Assembly: GCA_030606335.1 (NCBI GenBank)
Contig: JAUWGP010000005.1
Span: 1 to 64,000, forward strand
Length of the DNA stretch: 64,000 nt
DNA from: Caldifarciminota bacterium
Lineage (GTDB): Bacteria > Hydrothermota > UBA3073
Direction of reading: 5' to 3'
Made by a program: the position numbers and the translations under genes. Below the pieces are notes generated by a model that did not search any database, was not told where the DNA came from, and saw only the letters and a list, made by a program, of their open reading frames with translations. Of the stretch, positions 5,310 to 13,314 are shown piece by piece (the first letter of the stretch is position 1; every line of letters begins with the position of its first letter).

Positions 5310-5361
5310 GAAAAAATTATACAAATTGCATTTTTCTTAATAGGGGAATAAAAAATAAAGG

Positions 5362-5670
5362 ATGAGATTGCCACGCTCACTCCGTTCGCTCGCAATGACA
5401 GACACCCGGGAAGAGATTGCCACGACTTCACTTCGTTCAGTCTCGCAATGACAGGCACTCTGGAAGAGATTGCCACGCCTTCACTTCGTTCAGTCTCGCA
5501 ATGACATACTGTTGGGATGAGATTGCCACGCCTTCACTTCGTTCAGTCTCGCAATGACATACTGTTGGGATGAGATTGCCACGCCTTCACTTCGTTCAGT
5601 CTCGCAATGACGGAGGACAATGTTTGTCATTGCGAGGAGTGAGAAGGACGAAGCAATCCCTTTTTGGAGA
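5362..5670. repeat. Tandem array of 53-bp interspersed repeat (left flank of integron)
   Basis: About five units begin GAGATTGCCACG and end CTCGCAATGACA, with period 53 bp where regular (starts near 5466, 5519, 5572); the last part at 5626-5670 is an inverted half-unit. Each unit carries the complementary ends ATTGC/GCAAT. The same family recurs at 12958-13255, 46965-47165, 55752-55815 and 55998-56210. Spacers between palindromes are themselves repeated, so it is not CRISPR. Confidence 0.85.
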
Positions 5671-5871: not shown

Positions 5872-5931
5872 GTATAACATTCGAAATGAGCGGCTTTGCG
5901 GAGTAAAGTCCGCTCCATTGAGTGGTTATAC
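5872..5931 (-). other. attC site of the HEPN-like cassette (60 bp)
   Basis: On the minus strand it starts GTATAAC and ends GTTATAC. The inner arms GGAGCGGAC and GCCGCTCAT pair with offset bases, and the loop is short (TTTACTCCGCAAA). It lies 10 bp after the HEPN gene's stop, the standard position for an integron recombination site. Confidence 0.88.
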
Positions 5932-5941
5932 ATCACAATTA

Positions 5942-6640
5942 TTAAGTTGATTCTTCAGATGGAGTAAGTCCACCCCAAATCCAATCAATGTGCAATTTTT
6001 GTTTATTTTCTTCTCCTTCAGTTCTATAAGCACATTTCCATAGCCAATGTTCATCAAAAACATTTTCAAAAAATTTTAATAATTTACTAATCATATATTT
6101 TAGGGTAGACAATGCCTTTTCTGCATGGATTTCATTTGTTTCAAATGGATTTTTAGGTATTTTAGTTTGAGGATAATGATCTACGCCTGGCAAAATTCTA
6201 AAGTAGGGTACCTCTGGGCCATCACCCCACGAAAAAGTACCATCTTCTTCTGCGTTCACATAAACTCCAGATTTTGCATGCACAAAATCATTCCTTATTT
6301 TTATTAGTTCCTTAAAACTTTGAAAGGGCTCTTTGCCCCTTTCAAAAGTTTTGCCTGGAGGATTTGTTTTTCCACATACCAATGGTGCTAACTTCCATTT
6401 TTCTGGAGTTGATAATTTTTCAATTATTGAGGTATCTTTAGAATCATCCGCTCCAAGATAAAACTCATCATAAACTTTATTGATTAAGGCTTCACTTGCA
6501 AATATTGTTGATAAAATTGAATGCCTTGCAAAAAAAGATTTAAGTTTTGATCTTTCTTCTTTTGCAAACCTAAGAAAAGTCTGTGCATCTCTATAATGCT
6601 GATAAAAATAATTAATTTCTATTGTGGATTCTCTTCTCAT
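5942..6640 (-). CDS. HEPN-like domain protein, integron cassette
   Basis: The 232-residue product is largely helical and contains IRNDFVHAK at about residues 116-124. This is the R-x4-H motif that forms the RNase active site in HEPN proteins. Other family members are toxins, abortive-infection effectors or non-catalytic scaffolds. No N-terminal signal or membrane segment is present. The gene starts 14 bp after the preceding attC and has no Shine-Dalgarno, which is common in cassettes, and ends just before its own attC. Its neighbour upstream is the TIR-like cassette, so an anti-phage role is a reasonable but unproven guess. Confidence 0.6.
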   Translation of the reverse strand: MRRESTIEINYFYQHYRDAQTFLRFAKEERSKLKSFFARHSILSTIFASEALINKVYDEFYLGADDSKDTSIIEKLSTPEKWKLAPLVCGKTNPPGKTFERGKEPFQSFKELIKIRNDFVHAKSGVYVNAEEDGTFSWGDGPEVPYFRILPGVDHYPQTKIPKNPFETNEIHAEKALSTLKYMISKLLKFFENVFDEHWLWKCAYRTEGEENKQKLHIDWIWGGLTPSEEST

Positions 6641-6654
6641 GATTTAATTTTTTT

Positions 6655-6722
6655 GTATAACATTTGAGCTAACCTGCTTTTTTCGTGTAGCGTAAAAAGT
6701 CAGGTTGAGCGATTTGTTAGAC
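6655..6722 (-). other. attC site of the TIR-like cassette (68 bp)
   Basis: Minus strand begins GTCTAAC and ends GTTATAC. The arms TCAACCTGAC and GCAGGTTAGCT are the usual imperfect L''/L' pair. The site begins 1 bp after the stop codon of the TIR-like gene. Confidence 0.92.
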
Positions 6723-6723
6723 T

Positions 6724-7488
6724 TTAGAATGGGAGTTCTTCTACATTATCTTTAGGCTTTTGTAATACAAACTTATCTTTATTAGATAAAGTCCATGACC
6801 ATCCTTTTTCCGTAAAACTGTAGCCCCTGTAGTATTCACCAGTTTCATCTTGATAGTTTTCGCAATTCAAGAATCCTTTTTGAATAAGACTCTTTAATGC
6901 TATTGTTGCAGCAACTTTTGTAAATCCTCCTGTTTCCATATCACGTTTAATTTGAAAAGTTGAAGCATTATCGTCAGGATGATTGAGATTTTCTGCAATA
7001 GCCGCTAATGCATAAACCTCGTGTTGATCGAGCCCTTCAAATTTAGCGACTTTTGACACCTCTGTTATATTTGTCAATTTTTCTGTTTTTTGTAGAAAGG
7101 CTTTAATTTTTGCTGTTATATCTGTTTTTAGCTTTTCAAAATCACTTGTAGAACCAGTAGAATATCTAATTATTGTTCTATGCTGAATATCAAATGGAAA
7201 TTTTGATTGTCTTTCTTCTGAGCAAACTAAAACAACTTCTTTACCGCAAGCAATAGCATAACCTAATTCAAACCATACATTTGGATTATCCATAGTAATA
7301 TCTGCTAAACATAACTTTGATTCTCTTATACCTTTTTCTATGTCTTGTATAGGAATGCTTACTTTTGGATCCTGATCGACTCTGTATGGTTCAAGGTCTG
7401 CATCTATAATTGCGGGAGAAAATACATCTTTAAATCTGTTATCAAATTTACCTCGATCAAAGGGCTGGATAACAAAACATAACAGCAT
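6724..7488 (-). CDS. Nucleoside 2-deoxyribosyltransferase/TIR-like protein with winged-helix tail, integron cassette
   Basis: The 254-residue product begins with a Rossmann-like domain: CFVIQPF at the N-terminus, then CLADITMDNPNVWFELGYA (about 80-98) and KEVVLVCSEE. This is the signature of the family linking nucleoside 2-deoxyribosyltransferases to TIR-like NAD-cleaving effectors; the Asp and the Glu of FELGYA are the expected catalytic or ligand residues. Residues about 150-240 look like a winged-helix domain. A strong TAAGGAGGT precedes the ATG, next to the attI-like core at 7518. It is thus the first cassette of platform A. Defence or nucleotide signalling is plausible; substrate not determinable. 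Confidence 0.7.
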   Translation of the reverse strand: MLLCFVIQPFDRGKFDNRFKDVFSPAIIDADLEPYRVDQDPKVSIPIQDIEKGIRESKLCLADITMDNPNVWFELGYAIACGKEVVLVCSEERQSKFPFDIQHRTIIRYSTGSTSDFEKLKTDITAKIKAFLQKTEKLTNITEVSKVAKFEGLDQHEVYALAAIAENLNHPDDNASTFQIKRDMETGGFTKVAATIALKSLIQKGFLNCENYQDETGEYYRGYSFTEKGWSWTLSNKDKFVLQKPKDNVEELPF

Positions 7489-7517: not shown

Positions 7518-7524
7518 GTCTAAC
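7518..7524 (-). other. attI-like core site A (GTTAGAC)
   Basis: GTTAGAC fits the GTTRRRY recombination core. It lies between the intI remnant and the first cassette and is not followed by a paired attC structure, so it is read as attI. The identical flank ACCTAT precedes core B at 12477. Confidence 0.65.
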
Positions 7525-7863
7525 ATAGGTTTATCTGGACTAATGAAATAACAATAACAGCTAATGTTAGCCGTATAAATCCTCTCTCAATTATTCATTT
7601 TATCTAATTACTCTCTTAATTAATAAGCAATTAGATATAAGATATTTAAAAACTCGTGTTCTTATACGGCTTAAATATGGCATATAAAGTGAAATTAATT
7701 TATATCTACTGGAATAGTAGGTAGCAAATGAATGTCTGAAGGTATGACAACTTACCTGTTTTACAATACCTGCCTTTTTTATTGCTTGCTTTATTTCCTT
7801 TGCAAAACTGTCTCATAAATATGATGTCTACGTTTAATACCGGTTCGATGGTCTGTTGATATT
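7518..7863. repeat. Long direct repeat, copy A (attI plus 3' end of intI)
   Basis: About 346 bp align with 12477-12824, with scattered substitutions and small indels across attI-like sequence and the intI 3' end. By eye more than four fifths of positions agree. The copies diverge at both ends, so this is a duplicated integron platform rather than a simple insertion sequence. Confidence 0.85.
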
Positions 7864-7928
7864 CTTGTTGCAGGAAAAATATATTGCCAACCCCACTTAT
7901 ATCCTTGGGCTTTCAAATATAAACCAGG
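7701..7928 (-). pseudogene. intI: Integron integrase (intI) remnant A
   Basis: Translating the minus strand gives WGWQYIFPATR, then [18 protein letters not shown] and, after a frameshift, [11 protein letters not shown]. These are the integron-specific insertion (WQYVFP and RRHH.E) and the tyrosine-recombinase box with catalytic HxxR. The frame is broken after ETVLQ, the N-terminal half is absent, and the C-terminal catalytic Tyr region is missing. It is thus a dead IntI. It is co-directional with the cassettes. Confidence 0.88.
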
Positions 7929-8013: not shown

Positions 8014-8042
8014 ATAATAATATAAAAACAGGGAAAAGTCAA
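8014..8042 (-). promoter_or_regulatory. Promoter upstream of intI remnant A
   Basis: Minus strand TTGACT (8037-8042), 17 bp, TATTAT (8014-8019). It may be the relic intI promoter and could now transcribe through to the TIR-like and HEPN-like cassettes. Confidence 0.6.
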
Positions 8043-8164
8043 GGAAAAAAAGTTTATAGTGAAGAAAGGGTGAATATATGAGGTAGAACTGGTGTGGAAT
8101 CTACCTTACACTTTAGAAGGAAAGTGGTAATTGAGGTATAGGGGAACAGTCGAATCACATATAT

Positions 8165-8368
8165 TTAGAAGTTATAAACAAAATCTATGTAAGGAAAACC
8201 GGGGAAGGGCATACCTTTACCTAAGGTATTAATTAAAGCGAGATCTACGCTTATCGCTTTACCGAAGAAATGGATTCCATAAGAAATAAGTGGTTGGTCT
8301 ACACCCGGAAAAATCCAGTTTTCCGTAACAAATGCCGCGCGTCGTGAAAATCTCGCCTCACCACCTAA
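8165..8368 (-). pseudogene. C-terminal fragment of a probable outer-membrane beta-barrel protein
   Basis: The last 65 codons read as an alternating amphipathic segment ending in Tyr-Asn-Phe, with a GxxFFG strand and an aromatic terminal residue, like the last strands of an outer-membrane barrel. The reading frame runs without a break into the attC of the RDD cassette: Ala-Leu-Gly-Gly spans the GTTAGGT core at 8363-8369. The 5' part of the gene is absent. The exact join at a recombination core suggests integrase-mediated truncation. Confidence 0.6.
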
Positions 8369-8456
8369 CGCTGTGGCATCAGCGGCCCTACAAAGCCTAC
8401 TTTTCTGGAATTCTACTTTGGAGCGAAGTAGAGTCCTCTGGATGAAGTTGTTATGA
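8363..8456 (-). other. attC site of the RDD cassette (94 bp)
   Basis: Minus strand runs from TCATAAC to GTTAGGT. Arms AACTTCATCCAG and CTGATGCCACAGC show the usual offset pairing, with a second internal stem (CTACTT/AAGTAG) forming the loop. It starts 1 bp after the RDD stop codon. Confidence 0.82.
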
Positions 8457-8457
8457 G

Positions 8458-9048
8458 CTATTGATAGACACAAAAAGAATGAGCAATCATGTCATGCAAG
8501 GCACGTTTTCTATATGTAAAAGCAACCGCAATACAATCAACCAATATAAATAAATTAATGATAGTCTCAATGGGTTTTAAAGGATTTTGTTGCTGCAATT
8601 GTCCTATTTCCAACATACTCGGCGCTGTTTTAAATGCAGGTAATGAAAACAGTGTATAGATGCCTAAAAGACCAACAACGGTTGCTAAAAGAAAGGGTAT
8701 AAACCGAATGTAAGCTGATTTCAAATCTAGTTTTTCCCCGCGTTCATCTATAACTTTTAGCCTTTTTACCATTTTACCTAATGTTGCTCCATAATAGGAT
8801 TCCATGAAGGGTTTGTATATAAGCCCTGGTATACTAAGAACAATTAAGAGAAAATAGCTTTTAATTGAATTGAAAATAATAAAAGAAAGGACTATGATAG
8901 GAATAAACACTAAACCATCAATAAAATAAGCAACGACTCTAATCCAAAACCCAGCCGGTTTTAGATAACTTAGAATTTCTGATCCGCAGTTCGTACAATT
9001 TTTTAGACCATCTTGAACCTCTTGATCGCATTTGCTACATTTTTTCAT
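8458..9048 (-). CDS. Zinc-ribbon plus RDD-family membrane protein, integron cassette
   Basis: The 196-residue product begins with a zinc ribbon, CSKCDQE and CTNCGSE (residues 4-21). An RDD domain follows: FWIRVVAYFIDGLVF at about 33-47 supplies the Arg and Asp-containing first helix, and about three more membrane segments extend to residue 175. The second conserved part is YGATLGKMVKRLKV. RDD proteins are inner-membrane proteins of mostly unknown function, some acting as ion antiporters. The gene begins just after the beta-propeller cassette's attC and ends at its own attC. Confidence 0.85.
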   Translation of the reverse strand: MKKCSKCDQEVQDGLKNCTNCGSEILSYLKPAGFWIRVVAYFIDGLVFIPIIVLSFIIFNSIKSYFLLIVLSIPGLIYKPFMESYYGATLGKMVKRLKVIDERGEKLDLKSAYIRFIPFLLATVVGLLGIYTLFSLPAFKTAPSMLEIGQLQQQNPLKPIETIINLFILVDCIAVAFTYRKRALHDMIAHSFCVYQ

Positions 9049-9074
9049 ATTACACTTCCATTTTTATTTTTCAC

Positions 9075-9218
9075 TCATAACGATCAAGCTTACCTGCCCT
9101 GTGAAATATTTCAAATAATTACAAATAACAATAAATTGTCAAATAAAGCAACTTGAATGAATAGAGTCATAATATTACACTGCTATTTCACGGGGTCAGG
9201 TGCAGCGCCTTGTTAGGC
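9075..9218 (-). other. attC site of the beta-propeller cassette (144 bp)
   Basis: Minus strand begins GCCTAAC and ends GTTATGA. Arms GGCGCTGCACCTGACCCC and GGGCAGGTAAGCTTGATC pair imperfectly, extended by GTGAAATA/TATTTCAC. The long terminal loop is AT-rich, like the large VCR-type attC sites. The nearest upstream stop codon is 205 bp away. Confidence 0.93.
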
Positions 9219-9422: not shown

Positions 9423-11450
9423 TTATGGTAGCATGATTGTGATGGACTTGTGATAGTCTGAACGATGAATGTAGTTGTAGCCGTCAATCACCCGGTCCCA
9501 CACTCTCAGGTAGAAGGTGTGGGCACACTGCCGGGACGTCGGATCGCCCGGTACGGTGGTATGCCAGGGTGGCGATGGTACTACTGCATTCAGAATGCCA
9601 GACCATGAACCCGGGGGCGTGTAGCTGTCCGAATCTATGACTGCGGCCTTGTTGTCGCCCCATAGTGCTTTCAGTTGCCAGCTTTTCAGGTGACCCTCAG
9701 GATCGTGCGCCGTGATGCAGAAGGTGAATTCGTCACTGCCGCTTTTCACAATGGCACACGTGCCTACTACCACACCATCATGGATGATCTGGTCAATCAC
9801 GGCAGTAGGCCACTGGTTGTCAATCCGCACTTGTATGTCGTTGGTGCTCATCAAGGAGCTGGCATTGGGCGTGCTGTACGGCTTCACCGTGATCGTGTGC
9901 AGGCCGTTGGTCAAGCCAGACGTGTTCAACCTGTACCCTAACCAATGGTTATACCAGAGCTGGTCTGGAGGACGCACCCGAAAGTAACCACTGCCGAGTG
10001 GGTTCATCGTGCGTAGTTCAAAACGTTTGGTGCCGGTGCTCCAGCGGTAATCGCTCCAACCCTGCTTTTGAATTACATTGTCCACAAACACCTTGTAGTA
10101 GCGCGCGCCATCGTTATAGGCGCGTTCATGGTTAATCATCAGTGGCAATGTGCCGCCAAATGGCGCATCCTTCACCTGGAAGAAGTAGCTTGGGTCAACG
10201 GTGGTGTCAGCATAGCCACTGACAATGCGATCCACCGGCACATGACCTATGCCCAGCACGACCGGTCCGGTGGCTACATAGACAGACTCGGTGAGATTTA
10301 GCTCGCTGACCACGCTGTCGCTGCACAGCAATAAGTGGTCTGACGCCACCATGGCGACGCTGGATGGGCGGAAAGGCATACCTACTGCCACGTGCGATAC
10401 ACCTACTGGCGTCTGCGTTAGGTCAACCAATGAGACCCGATTGGCAGGGTCGCGCTCAGTGGTTAGGATACCACCCTCGCCGGTGTCAGCCCAAGTCAAG
10501 AAGAATGGCTGGGCCATGCCAGTAACCAGCACCTCACGCTGACCTGTGTTTAACTCAATACGGCTCACCTGGCCATTGCCAACGCTCGCCTGCTCGCTGA
10601 CATAGGCAAAGCGCAAATCGTCTGTCATAAGCAGGCCGATGGCCCACTCCAAGGTGTTGACCAATACAGTTTGCGCACCGGTCATCAAGTCAATGCGGAG
10701 CAAGCGGCCTGGATTGGCGAATTCCACCACGTAGGCGTGACCACGGGCCTCGTCCAACGCAATCTGGTGCGGCGCCGTCATGCCCGAGCTGACGACCGTC
10801 GCCTGAGAGCGATCAGCATTGGACAGATCCACGCGCAGCAGGTTGCCGCTACGCTCGGTAATGTAGACGTGCTGCCCGTCAGTGCTCACGACAACGTCTT
10901 CCGGATGGGTATAACCTGTGCCGAGCACATAGTATCGAGGATTCAGCCTGTAGGTTCTCCACTGGATTTTGAGGTCGTAGCCGTAGTTGATAACTTGAAC
11001 CTTGGCGTAATTACCGCTGTTGGTGATGACAGCGAAGACATCGTTATTGACAAGCTGGTTCGTGGCATCGTTGTTGCCGTTGAGCGGGGTATCACTGTAG
11101 CTGAGACCCTGCAGTTCAGCAGCAGAGACACCATTGAAATTGACCACGCCGATGTTGGCGATTTTGGCGCTACCTTGAGGGTCCATACTGCGGATGGTAC
11201 TTGTGTGTTGGTGCCAGAAGACATCCGAGACGCCCGCACCTGAACCCTCGGTACCGGTGTCAAAATTGAACTTGTAGGTGCCATGGAGAACAGCTATCCC
11301 GGAAGAGACGACGGAATCCACGGAGCAGACTAAGTCGATGCGAGAGATCTTGCCGTCGTACTCAACAAAGATCAGTTGGTTGCGACTGTTAAGATAGTCG
11401 CAACCGATAGCGCCACCGAGGCCGGTGGCAAGGGGAATAGGTATAGCCAT
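9423..11450 (-). CDS. GC-rich beta-propeller (NHL/SMP-30-like) protein, integron cassette
   Basis: The 675-residue product has about six blade-like repeats between residues 20 and 380, with the rhythm HP.D..V..DG.H.Y.TE....L.R.DL (for example YTHPEDVVVSTDGQHVYITE and APHQIALDEARGHAYVVE). Ig-like or carbohydrate-binding-like beta domains follow. No signal peptide is evident, so location is uncertain. Composition is well over half G+C in sampled lines against about one third in neighbours, and codon use differs, so the gene is foreign. AAGGAGG precedes the ATG. Substrate or partner is unknown. Confidence 0.65.
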   Translation of the reverse strand: MAIPIPLATGLGGAIGCDYLNSRNQLIFVEYDGKISRIDLVCSVDSVVSSGIAVLHGTYKFNFDTGTEGSGAGVSDVFWHQHTSTIRSMDPQGSAKIANIGVVNFNGVSAAELQGLSYSDTPLNGNNDATNQLVNNDVFAVITNSGNYAKVQVINYGYDLKIQWRTYRLNPRYYVLGTGYTHPEDVVVSTDGQHVYITERSGNLLRVDLSNADRSQATVVSSGMTAPHQIALDEARGHAYVVEFANPGRLLRIDLMTGAQTVLVNTLEWAIGLLMTDDLRFAYVSEQASVGNGQVSRIELNTGQREVLVTGMAQPFFLTWADTGEGGILTTERDPANRVSLVDLTQTPVGVSHVAVGMPFRPSSVAMVASDHLLLCSDSVVSELNLTESVYVATGPVVLGIGHVPVDRIVSGYADTTVDPSYFFQVKDAPFGGTLPLMINHERAYNDGARYYKVFVDNVIQKQGWSDYRWSTGTKRFELRTMNPLGSGYFRVRPPDQLWYNHWLGYRLNTSGLTNGLHTITVKPYSTPNASSLMSTNDIQVRIDNQWPTAVIDQIIHDGVVVGTCAIVKSGSDEFTFCITAHDPEGHLKSWQLKALWGDNKAAVIDSDSYTPPGSWSGILNAVVPSPPWHTTVPGDPTSRQCAHTFYLRVWDRVIDGYNYIHRSDYHKSITIMLP

Positions 11451-11827
11451 TTTTATACCTCCTTAGATGTTAGTAAAATTTTCCTCTCATGCAGAGGGAA
11501 TCCTATAGGTAACAGGCCAGATGTTGTGGCGAATACGGCAGCCGTTTCGCCTTCGAACTCAAACCTTTATCATAGGCAGCCACCTCCTTATCCGTCTCTA
11601 TGAAAATGTTGCCTAACGTGAGCATAACCTGCCGCCGCCACTTACGCACAGAGTTTCGAGAGAAGAACGTAACTTGACTAACAAACAAAATTTCAAAATT
11701 CGCGCCATAGCTAGGCGGTCAGGTTAATGCATGGTTAGGCACTTAAACTACACATAAACAAACTATTAAAGTAAATATATTTAGGTTTTAATTGAATTAG
11801 TTTCAGTCTTTTTCAAGAGTAAACACA
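11451..11827. other. Cassette junction: propeller-gene leader and lipoprotein-cassette attC
   Basis: It holds a roughly 160-bp leader of the propeller gene, the 130-bp attC at 11611-11740 and an AT-rich tail. No further gene is visible. Confidence 0.6.
11611..11740 (-). other. attC site of the lipoprotein cassette (130 bp)
   Basis: Both ends match the core consensus exactly: GCCTAAC and GTTAGGC. Arms ATTAACCTGACCGCC and GGCGGCAGGTTATGC pair with the usual bulge. The interior is AT-rich and partly palindromic. Confidence 0.95.
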
Positions 11828-12313
11828 TTAATCTTCTACCCATCCTGACATAGGAAAAGAAAAATGAGCTTGTACAATAACCCAATTATCATTTCGTTTC
11901 TCTAAACCGAATGTGGCTCTAACTCCTTCAAAACTTGTAGGTTTGTCTTGATATATTTCATTTCCATCTTGGATAAATAAAACCCACGCCGATTTACCCG
12001 AAGGATGAATTTTAATAAACTCATCTTTAAATGTGTAGGAAATATTTTCTGAAGAATCAAACCATTTCTGCAAATTTTCTTCGACTGACTTCCATCCTAT
12101 TCCCTTTGTAGAATCAGCATTTATTAAAACTATGTCATCATCAGAAGCGAAAACTTGAGATAACATTCCCAAATTTTCGTTATTTACGGCTTGATGAAAT
12201 TTATCAAGCATAGACTGAATATTTGCTTTTTCAGAATTGATTTCAACTTCATTAGTGCAAGCACTTAAAGATAATAGGGCTACTACCAGAAAAAAAACAA
12301 TTAAGTTCTTCAT
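11828..12313 (-). CDS. SnoaL/DUF4440-like lipoprotein, integron cassette
   Basis: The 161-residue product starts with a lipoprotein signal, MKNLIVFFLVVALLSLSAC, with a lipobox LSAC ending at Cys19. The mature part is an NTF2/SnoaL-like fold: a helix with FHQAVNNEN, then FASDDDIVLI, a Trp-Lys turn, and C-terminal strands including WVIVQAHFS. This matches DUF4440/calcium-calmodulin-kinase-association-like ketosteroid-isomerase folds; function unknown. AAAGGAG lies eight bases before the ATG at 12313, so this start is preferred to one 16 codons upstream. It is the first cassette after attI-like core B. Confidence 0.8.
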   Translation of the reverse strand: MKNLIVFFLVVALLSLSACTNEVEINSEKANIQSMLDKFHQAVNNENLGMLSQVFASDDDIVLINADSTKGIGWKSVEENLQKWFDSSENISYTFKDEFIKIHPSGKSAWVLFIQDGNEIYQDKPTSFEGVRATFGLEKRNDNWVIVQAHFSFPMSGWVED

Positions 12314-12476
12314 GGTAAAACTCCTTTTGTTAATAAATAAAATATGTTTAATGTTATCCAAGAAAGTCTACTAATAATCAATGTAATTAACTTAAATTGC
12401 TTAAAAAATAAAATTTAAGATCCTATAATGAACATATGACTATTTATGAACTGTTTTTTACACAAATTTTAGTAGT

Positions 12477-12483
12477 GCCTAAC
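12477..12483 (-). other. attI-like core site B (GTTAGGC)
   Basis: GTTAGGC matches GTTRRRY exactly and is preceded by ACCTAT as at core A. It lies directly upstream of the lipoprotein cassette and downstream of the intI remnant. Confidence 0.7.
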
Positions 12484-12824
12484 ATAGGTTTATCCGTACT
12501 AATAAATTAACAATCACAGCTAAAATTAACCGTATAACACTCTCTCTTACTTATCTTTTTATTTTATAACTCTCTTAACTTGTAAGTATTTAGATATAAG
12601 ATATTTAAAAAACTAGTGTTCTTATACGGCTTAAATATGGCATATAAAGTGAAATAAAATTATATCTGCTGGGCTAGTAGGTAGCGAATGAATGTCTGAA
12701 AATATGACAACTTGCATGTTTTACAATTCCTGTCTTTTTTATTGCTTGCTTTACTACCTTTTGCAAAACTGTCTCATAAATATGATGTCTACGTTTAATA
12801 CCGGTTCGAGGGTCTGTTGATATT
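12477..12824. repeat. Long direct repeat, copy B
   Basis: Counterpart of 7518-7863. The best conserved block is the intI coding part; the attI-proximal part is more diverged. Confidence 0.85.
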
Positions 12825-12847
12825 TTCTCTTTAATGCATTTTATCAC
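12674..12847 (-). pseudogene. intI: Integron integrase (intI) remnant B
   Basis: An open frame from a GTG at 12847 encodes [16 protein letters not shown], then LQKVVKQAIKKTGIVKHAS and IFRHSFATY before a TAG. These are the IntI-specific RRHH.E segment and the recombinase HxxR box. The N-terminal two thirds are missing, and after HSFAT the frame is lost where HLL...GYDIRT would be expected, so the nucleophilic Tyr is gone. The remnant is inactive. Confidence 0.88.
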
Positions 12848-12931: not shown

Positions 12932-12957
12932 GGAAAAATCAGAAATCCCTATGGGTA

Positions 12958-13255
12958 AAAATGATATAAGGGAAGAGGTTGCCACGTTCATTTCATTCAC
13001 TCGCAATGACGGACACTCTGGATGAGATTGCCACGCCTTTACTTCGTTCAGTCTCGCAATGACAGACACTCGGGAAAAGATTGCCACGACTTCACTTCGT
13101 TCAGACTCACAATGACGGACACTCGGGAAGAGATTGCCACGACTTCACTTCGTTCAGACTCGCAATGACGGACACTCGGGAAGAGATTGCTTCGTCCGTC
13201 CAGAAAAACGACGGACTCGCAATGACGGACACTCTGGATGAGATTATCATATAAT
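12958..13255. repeat. Tandem array of the 53-bp interspersed repeat (right flank of integron)
   Basis: About six degenerate units of the family at 5362-5670 lie in the same orientation, each with GAGATTGCCACG and CTCGCAATGAC ends and a variable GACACTCGGGAA linker. Confidence 0.85.
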
Positions 13256-13314
13256 GACAAAAGTATTAAAATCAGTATTGGATACTACAAACCCATTTAT
13301 GTGGAATTTTTTTC

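Follow-up and report, generated by a model that had tools for sequence, protein, structure and literature searches.

The window (the whole stretch of 64,000 nucleotides that was analyzed, from genome G000) carries on its minus strand an integrase remnant, an attI-like stretch, three gene cassettes encoding SnoaL-like, NHL-like and RDD proteins and then a gene fragment. Beyond the fragment, a further integrase remnant and a further attI-like stretch precede two additional cassettes. The features, in minus-strand order, are as follows.

12677-12829, minus strand: integron-integrase remnant 1, C-terminal part only (TIGR02249 59.6 bits versus XerC 27.2).
12477-12690, minus strand: attI-like stretch 1, whose core heads the SnoaL-like cassette; its position suggests the attI role.
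11611-11740, minus strand: attC of the SnoaL-like cassette (gene 11828-12361).
9075-9218, minus strand: attC of the NHL-like cassette (gene 9423-11450).
8369-9080, minus strand: RDD gene cassette (RDD protein 8458-9048; RDD domain match, 80.4 bits).
8363-8457, minus strand: attC of the RDD cassette, R'' CTCATAAC, closing on its own cassette start, with the core supplied by the target.
8363-8369, minus strand: core G|TTAGGT at the junction of the RDD cassette attC and the gene fragment; homology to the full-length genes begins at the G, with none before it.
8165-8368, minus strand: C-terminal 67 codons plus stop of a barrel-like, outer-membrane-like protein of ~300 aa (no Pfam family), recognized by amino acid identity to relatives.
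8020-8164, minus strand: 3' flank of the fragment, also present in UBA3073 (identity at 83 of 100 aligned bases).
7717-7904, minus strand: integron-integrase remnant 2, frame-shifted (integrase profile match).
7518-7730, minus strand: attI-like stretch 2, head of the second array.
6724-7488, minus strand: second-array cassette, attC 6655-6722.
5942-6640, minus strand: second-array cassette, attC 5872-5931.

Both integrase remnants end near RHSFATY and are followed by a conserved attI-like stretch of ~190 bp and by cassettes. The first stretch ends at the core GTTAGGC (G at 12483) and recurs at 7531-7730 as well as in two other genomes, G001 of the same genus and G002 (WOR-3 bacterium UBA3073) of another genus in the same family. 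Judged from these matches, the segments 12477-12829 and 7518-7904 are two tandem degraded integrons. The only traces of intI beside the attI-like stretches were the remnants at 12677-12829 and 7717-7904, and no intact integron integrase scored above the TIGR02249 cut-off in 147 WOR-3 genomes. The C9 tyrosine recombinase was considered as an integrase and rejected: its best match was a XerA-like model (214 bits, just under the cut-off of that model), TIGR02249 gave 212 bits, below the cut-off, and the TIGR02249 matches skip positions 180-229. The window resembles CALINs and integrons with a degraded integrase in having an attC array without a working intI nearby. It differs from them in that attI-like stretches and intI remnants stand at the head and a fixed gene fragment at the end.

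Attachment-like sequences were also seen elsewhere. An attI-like piece of ~55-60 bp (TTATACGGTTAAG...GATAAACCTATG) is repeated within one array, locus L131 (G001:C7), each time separating an attC end from the cassette that follows, on the minus strand near 7790-7735, 5243-5187 and 2985-2925, and similar partial matches occur on C11 of G000. At locus L125 (G000:C53) a ComM/YifB-type Mg-chelatase-like gene (ChlI and Mg_chelatase domains; 6192-7307, minus strand) lacks its C-terminal part; the break lies ~650 bp upstream of another attI-like stretch and not at a GTT core, and Mg_chelatase_C had no match in the G000 genome. In the window, the arrays are bordered at 12950-13290 and 5360-5660 by clusters of a short repeat (GTCATTGCGAG..GAACGAAGTGAAG type).

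The attC scans, for which core patterns and energy thresholds were chosen ad hoc, do not amount to a census. All five cassettes of the window close, the attC R'' being the reverse complement of the cassette's own first core. The RDD cassette starts at 9080, after the core GTTATGAG (G at 9081), and its R'' CTCATAAC is the reverse complement of this start in 8/8 bases; the other four close on 7 bases. As it stands, the RDD attC folds weakly (z -1.03; equalled by 27 of 200 shuffles). Joining the two ends of the cassette to each other lets the R boxes pair over 8 bp. The two second-array cassettes (6724-7488 and 5942-6640) code for a nucleoside-deoxyribosyltransferase/TIR-like protein and a protein with weak HEPN likeness, and are possibly defence genes.

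On the minus strand, the junction of the last cassette and the fragment reads ...GATGCCACAGC|GTTAGGTGGTGAGGCGAG..., with the core at 8369-8363. The RDD attC ends in ...CACAGC, followed by GTTAGGTGGTGAGGC. A full-length relative of the fragment exists in the same genome; this C7 gene is intact, 302 codons long and separate from the fragment. It reads ATG|TTAGGTGGTGA at the matching point, the bases aligned to the junction being GTGAT GTTAGGTGGTGAAGC. From the core G onward the window and the C7 gene are identical at 12/12 and 21/24 bases, versus 0/12 and 3/24 before it, whereas the full-length C7 and G001 genes agree on both sides of the point (18/24 upstream, 19/24 downstream). Since homology starts at the core G, and since the start of the RDD cassette pairs 8/8 with its attC R'', TTAGGT comes from the gene and the cassette ends at the G, as integrase cleavage predicts. 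The fusion of the fragment to the last cassette is confirmed at the sequence level and is base-exact at the predicted integrase cut. The initial annotation had correctly placed the start of the fragment at the RDD attC core, its length being 67 codons plus stop instead of 65. The Leu-Gly-Gly that it had read in frame through GTTAGGT is present but incidental, because the UBA3073 fragment has TAA at the core in that reading frame.

The fragment is 72% identical in amino acids to the C7 gene, 76% to the G001 gene and 85% to the G002 fragment, and 25 of 147 WOR-3 genomes contain matches to it (E <= 0.001). No relatives were found among 109 pattern matches in IMG/VR, and there was no match in plasmids. 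For the comparison of full-length relatives, 46 loci were drawn from GTDB genomes; the readings at L031, L032, L037 and L041, taken from the wrong strand, were left out. Intact relatives run unbroken through this point, where many read PM[VI]M|LGG. The initial annotation had suggested looking there for GTTAGG, and both same-genus genes, C7 and G001, do carry GTTAGGT. G|TTAGGT, of the G|TTRRRY form of a secondary-site crossover, stands at the junction as well as in these two genes, and neither the C7 gene (906 bp) nor the G001 gene (912 bp) has another GTTRRRY on its top strand; the chance that a random break would fall at a sole GTTRRRY is about 1 in 900. Among the full-length relatives, an exact GTTRRRY at the cut point was otherwise found only in one Bacteroidales gene (L081). 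It occurred in 1 of the 17 genes of a second set, to which C7 and L081 do not belong, and most other full-length relatives have GATCGGx, GCTCGGC or similar at the point.

The AlphaFold model of the G001 protein (pLDDT 74) has a helix at the N terminus, a small domain rich in strands and a group of strands that resembles a barrel. In this model the cut, before residue 237, falls within the beta strand 234-242 and not at a domain edge. Foldseek found nothing in the PDB beyond weak matches to porin-like structures (best E 2.2e-3).

The divergence inside the fragment that would speak against a recombinational origin was not seen; homology breaks at the core. As it follows an attC immediately, in the way of a cassette, the fragment might itself have been captured as one, or a deletion unrelated to recombination might have ended at the core by chance. 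Both readings are highly improbable: no attC was detected from the fragment to integrase remnant 2, or to the next gene in G002, and the break is at the core to the base in two genomes.

The second of these genomes is UBA3073 (G002). Its C-terminal fragment is cut at the same base, although the core there, GTAAGGA, does not fit GTTRRRY, and it ends an array headed by the same attI-like stretch (79% identity). The genes of this array are FMN-reductase-like, methyltransferase, TPR and barrel-like (the last without a Pfam match and read from the sequence), and none of the cassettes is among those of the window. The last cassette closes 8/8 on its own start, and its attC folds weakly as it stands (z -0.20; 73 of 200 shuffles as good). 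What the two genomes have in common is the fragment with its 3' flank (273 of 311 aligned bases identical). At four-fold sites the fragments agree in 23 of 27 positions and glyA (SHMT), the sole chromosomal gene used as a divergence yardstick, in 56 of 163 (Fisher p 8e-7). In G002 the glyA gene and the fragment are ~5 kb apart, whereas the glyA of G000 is on contig C30; the gene following the G002 fragment is absent from the other four family genomes, and the two loci are apparently non-syntenic. The excess of four-fold identity over this one yardstick gene suggests that the fragment and the array end were probably shared horizontally or came from a common donor.

The 5' half of the gene was searched for with the full-length protein in G000 and 59 relatives and was not found; the search yielded only full-length copies, C-terminal fragments, a match at a contig edge (G022) and a weak partial match (G013). 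Neither G000 (90.4% complete) nor G002 (91% complete) yielded the 5' part, so the other half of the target was not found beyond the array in either. This bears on a simple insertion, in which circular cassettes entered this chromosome's copy of the gene, whose 5' part either disappeared afterwards or is hidden in the tenth of the genome that is not assembled. Such an insertion would be a known reaction (attG integration, Loot et al. 2024, as cited in the available parts of PMC12444791 and PMC12901181), and the completeness of 90.4% leaves space for a hidden 5' part. We consider it unlikely, as the 5' part would be expected on the far side of the insert in G000 or G002, the array comes with an integrase remnant and an attI-like head of its own and so is more than inserted cassettes, and the intact C7 gene is a separate one. 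The proposal of the initial annotation that the event seeded cassettes into a resident gene was not borne out: besides the missing 5' part and the intact resident copy, which is a different gene, this junction is also present in another genus, at the end of a different array and apparently at a different locus.

Between G000 and G002 the fragments differ at 7, 4 and 7 of 67 first, second and third codon positions (dS 0.185, dN 0.072, w 0.39). The difference between synonymous and non-synonymous changes gave p of 0.04-0.14, varying with rounding. Non-synonymous divergence is lower than the divergence of the 3' flank (Fisher p 0.012-0.023), which would be surprising had a single old event left both of them as dead fragments ever since. 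Conserved residues are broken once in the window fragment and twice in that of G002, versus 0-5 times in 21 full-length members, thus no clear decay is visible. With non-synonymous divergence this low, a shared gene that was still intact may have been cut on two separate occasions. In that case a full-length gene, acquired by horizontal sharing and situated downstream of arrays in both lineages, would have been targeted twice at its single GTTAGGT, and part of the divergence would have accrued while the gene was intact. The site is the sole top-strand GTTRRRY in both same-genus genes, and the cassettes before the fragment are wholly different in G000 and G002, which also fits. The gene would, however, have to be cut, and lose its 5' half, twice over, and the fragments also share ~145 bp of 3' flank in the window, so we regard two independent events as rather doubtful.

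We propose that an integron integrase recombined an array attC with the GTTAGGT inside the gene, and that the junction is very likely a natural scar of off-target recombination. This agrees with the initial annotation, which had invoked recombination by IntI between attC and a GTTRRRY-like site within a gene; it is the best explanation, GTTAGGT lying at the exact point in two same-genus full-length genes. The junction, exact to the base, its counterpart site in intact relatives and the closure of the cassettes are directly observed; the enzyme would be an IntI. It would join the attC to the GTTAGGT of the barrel-like protein gene by cutting G|TTAGGT, leaving the last 67 codons behind the last cassette of the array. 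If the attC and the in-gene site were in direct orientation, the 5' half would leave with the excised DNA in a single step, as in a deletion; alternatively, the joined end may have moved later without the 5' half. One event may lie behind both genera, with ordinary excision and insertion changing the cassettes before the same right-hand half core. As no 5' part was found, the resident copy is a different, intact gene, and the second genus has the junction in a different array at an apparently different locus, with the two copies far more alike than the glyA genes, the cut probably happened once, possibly in another genome, the joined end being inherited or transferred, or else an array-gene deletion took place.

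In favor of recombination between attC and the in-gene site we counted the junction at the same base behind different last cassettes in the window and UBA3073, the sole GTTRRRY of C7 and G001, the unbroken relatives and the cut inside a strand. The integrase remnants and five closing attCs of the window argue for an integrase, as do the blaVEB-1 precedent and other off-target rearrangements at GTTRRRY-like sites. Counted against it were the lack of an intact IntI above the TIGR02249 cut-off in 147 genomes, the weak folding of the two terminal attCs, the G002 core GTAAGGA, the few relatives with an exact GTTRRRY, the failure to find the reciprocal 5' product and the low non-synonymous divergence.

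As described in the available part of PMC3518468, the aadB attC recombined in the laboratory, as seen once, with GTTAAGT within blaVEB-1 and truncated it. The truncated veb1 cassette resembles our case in the pairing of attC with a GTTRRRY in coding sequence and in the removal of the 5' end, but it lost 11 codons in an assay, whereas here ~3/4 of a gene was lost naturally and the scar is found in two genera. Integration of cassettes at genomic attG sites, as those citing reports present it, likewise involves a chromosomal site other than attI/attC; it would be expected to retain both flanks, whereas here only the 3' flank was found and the site is a full GTTRRRY. In plasmid R388, off-target integrase inversions between GTTRRRY-like sites also disrupt genes (PMC10127599, as far as its available text goes), but there two secondary sites were inverted under drug selection, whereas here one of the partners is an attC and the 5' part is missing. 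The scar adds a new natural instance of an already known reaction. No paper combining integron, WOR-3 and attC was found in the literature search, and nothing similar to gene fragments at array ends was present among the literature matches listed.

A more speculative idea, to which we give little credence, is that the fragment is the fixed right end of a travelling integron module of this WOR-3 family, with an attI-like head, interchangeable cassettes and a distal boundary that off-target recombination made once and that has moved between genera together with the array, or that the single GTTAGGT of this gene family is a hot spot used repeatedly to end arrays.

Altogether, integron cassettes and integrase remnants are demonstrated in candidate division WOR-3. 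Laboratory assays and plasmids have already revealed off-target integron recombination; the scar described here would be a natural case, exact to the base, from uncultured bacteria. Because the target gene can be compared with its intact relatives and a second genus carries the scar, the lasting genomic cost of integrase activity, and likewise the movement of whole array ends, may be studied from sequence.
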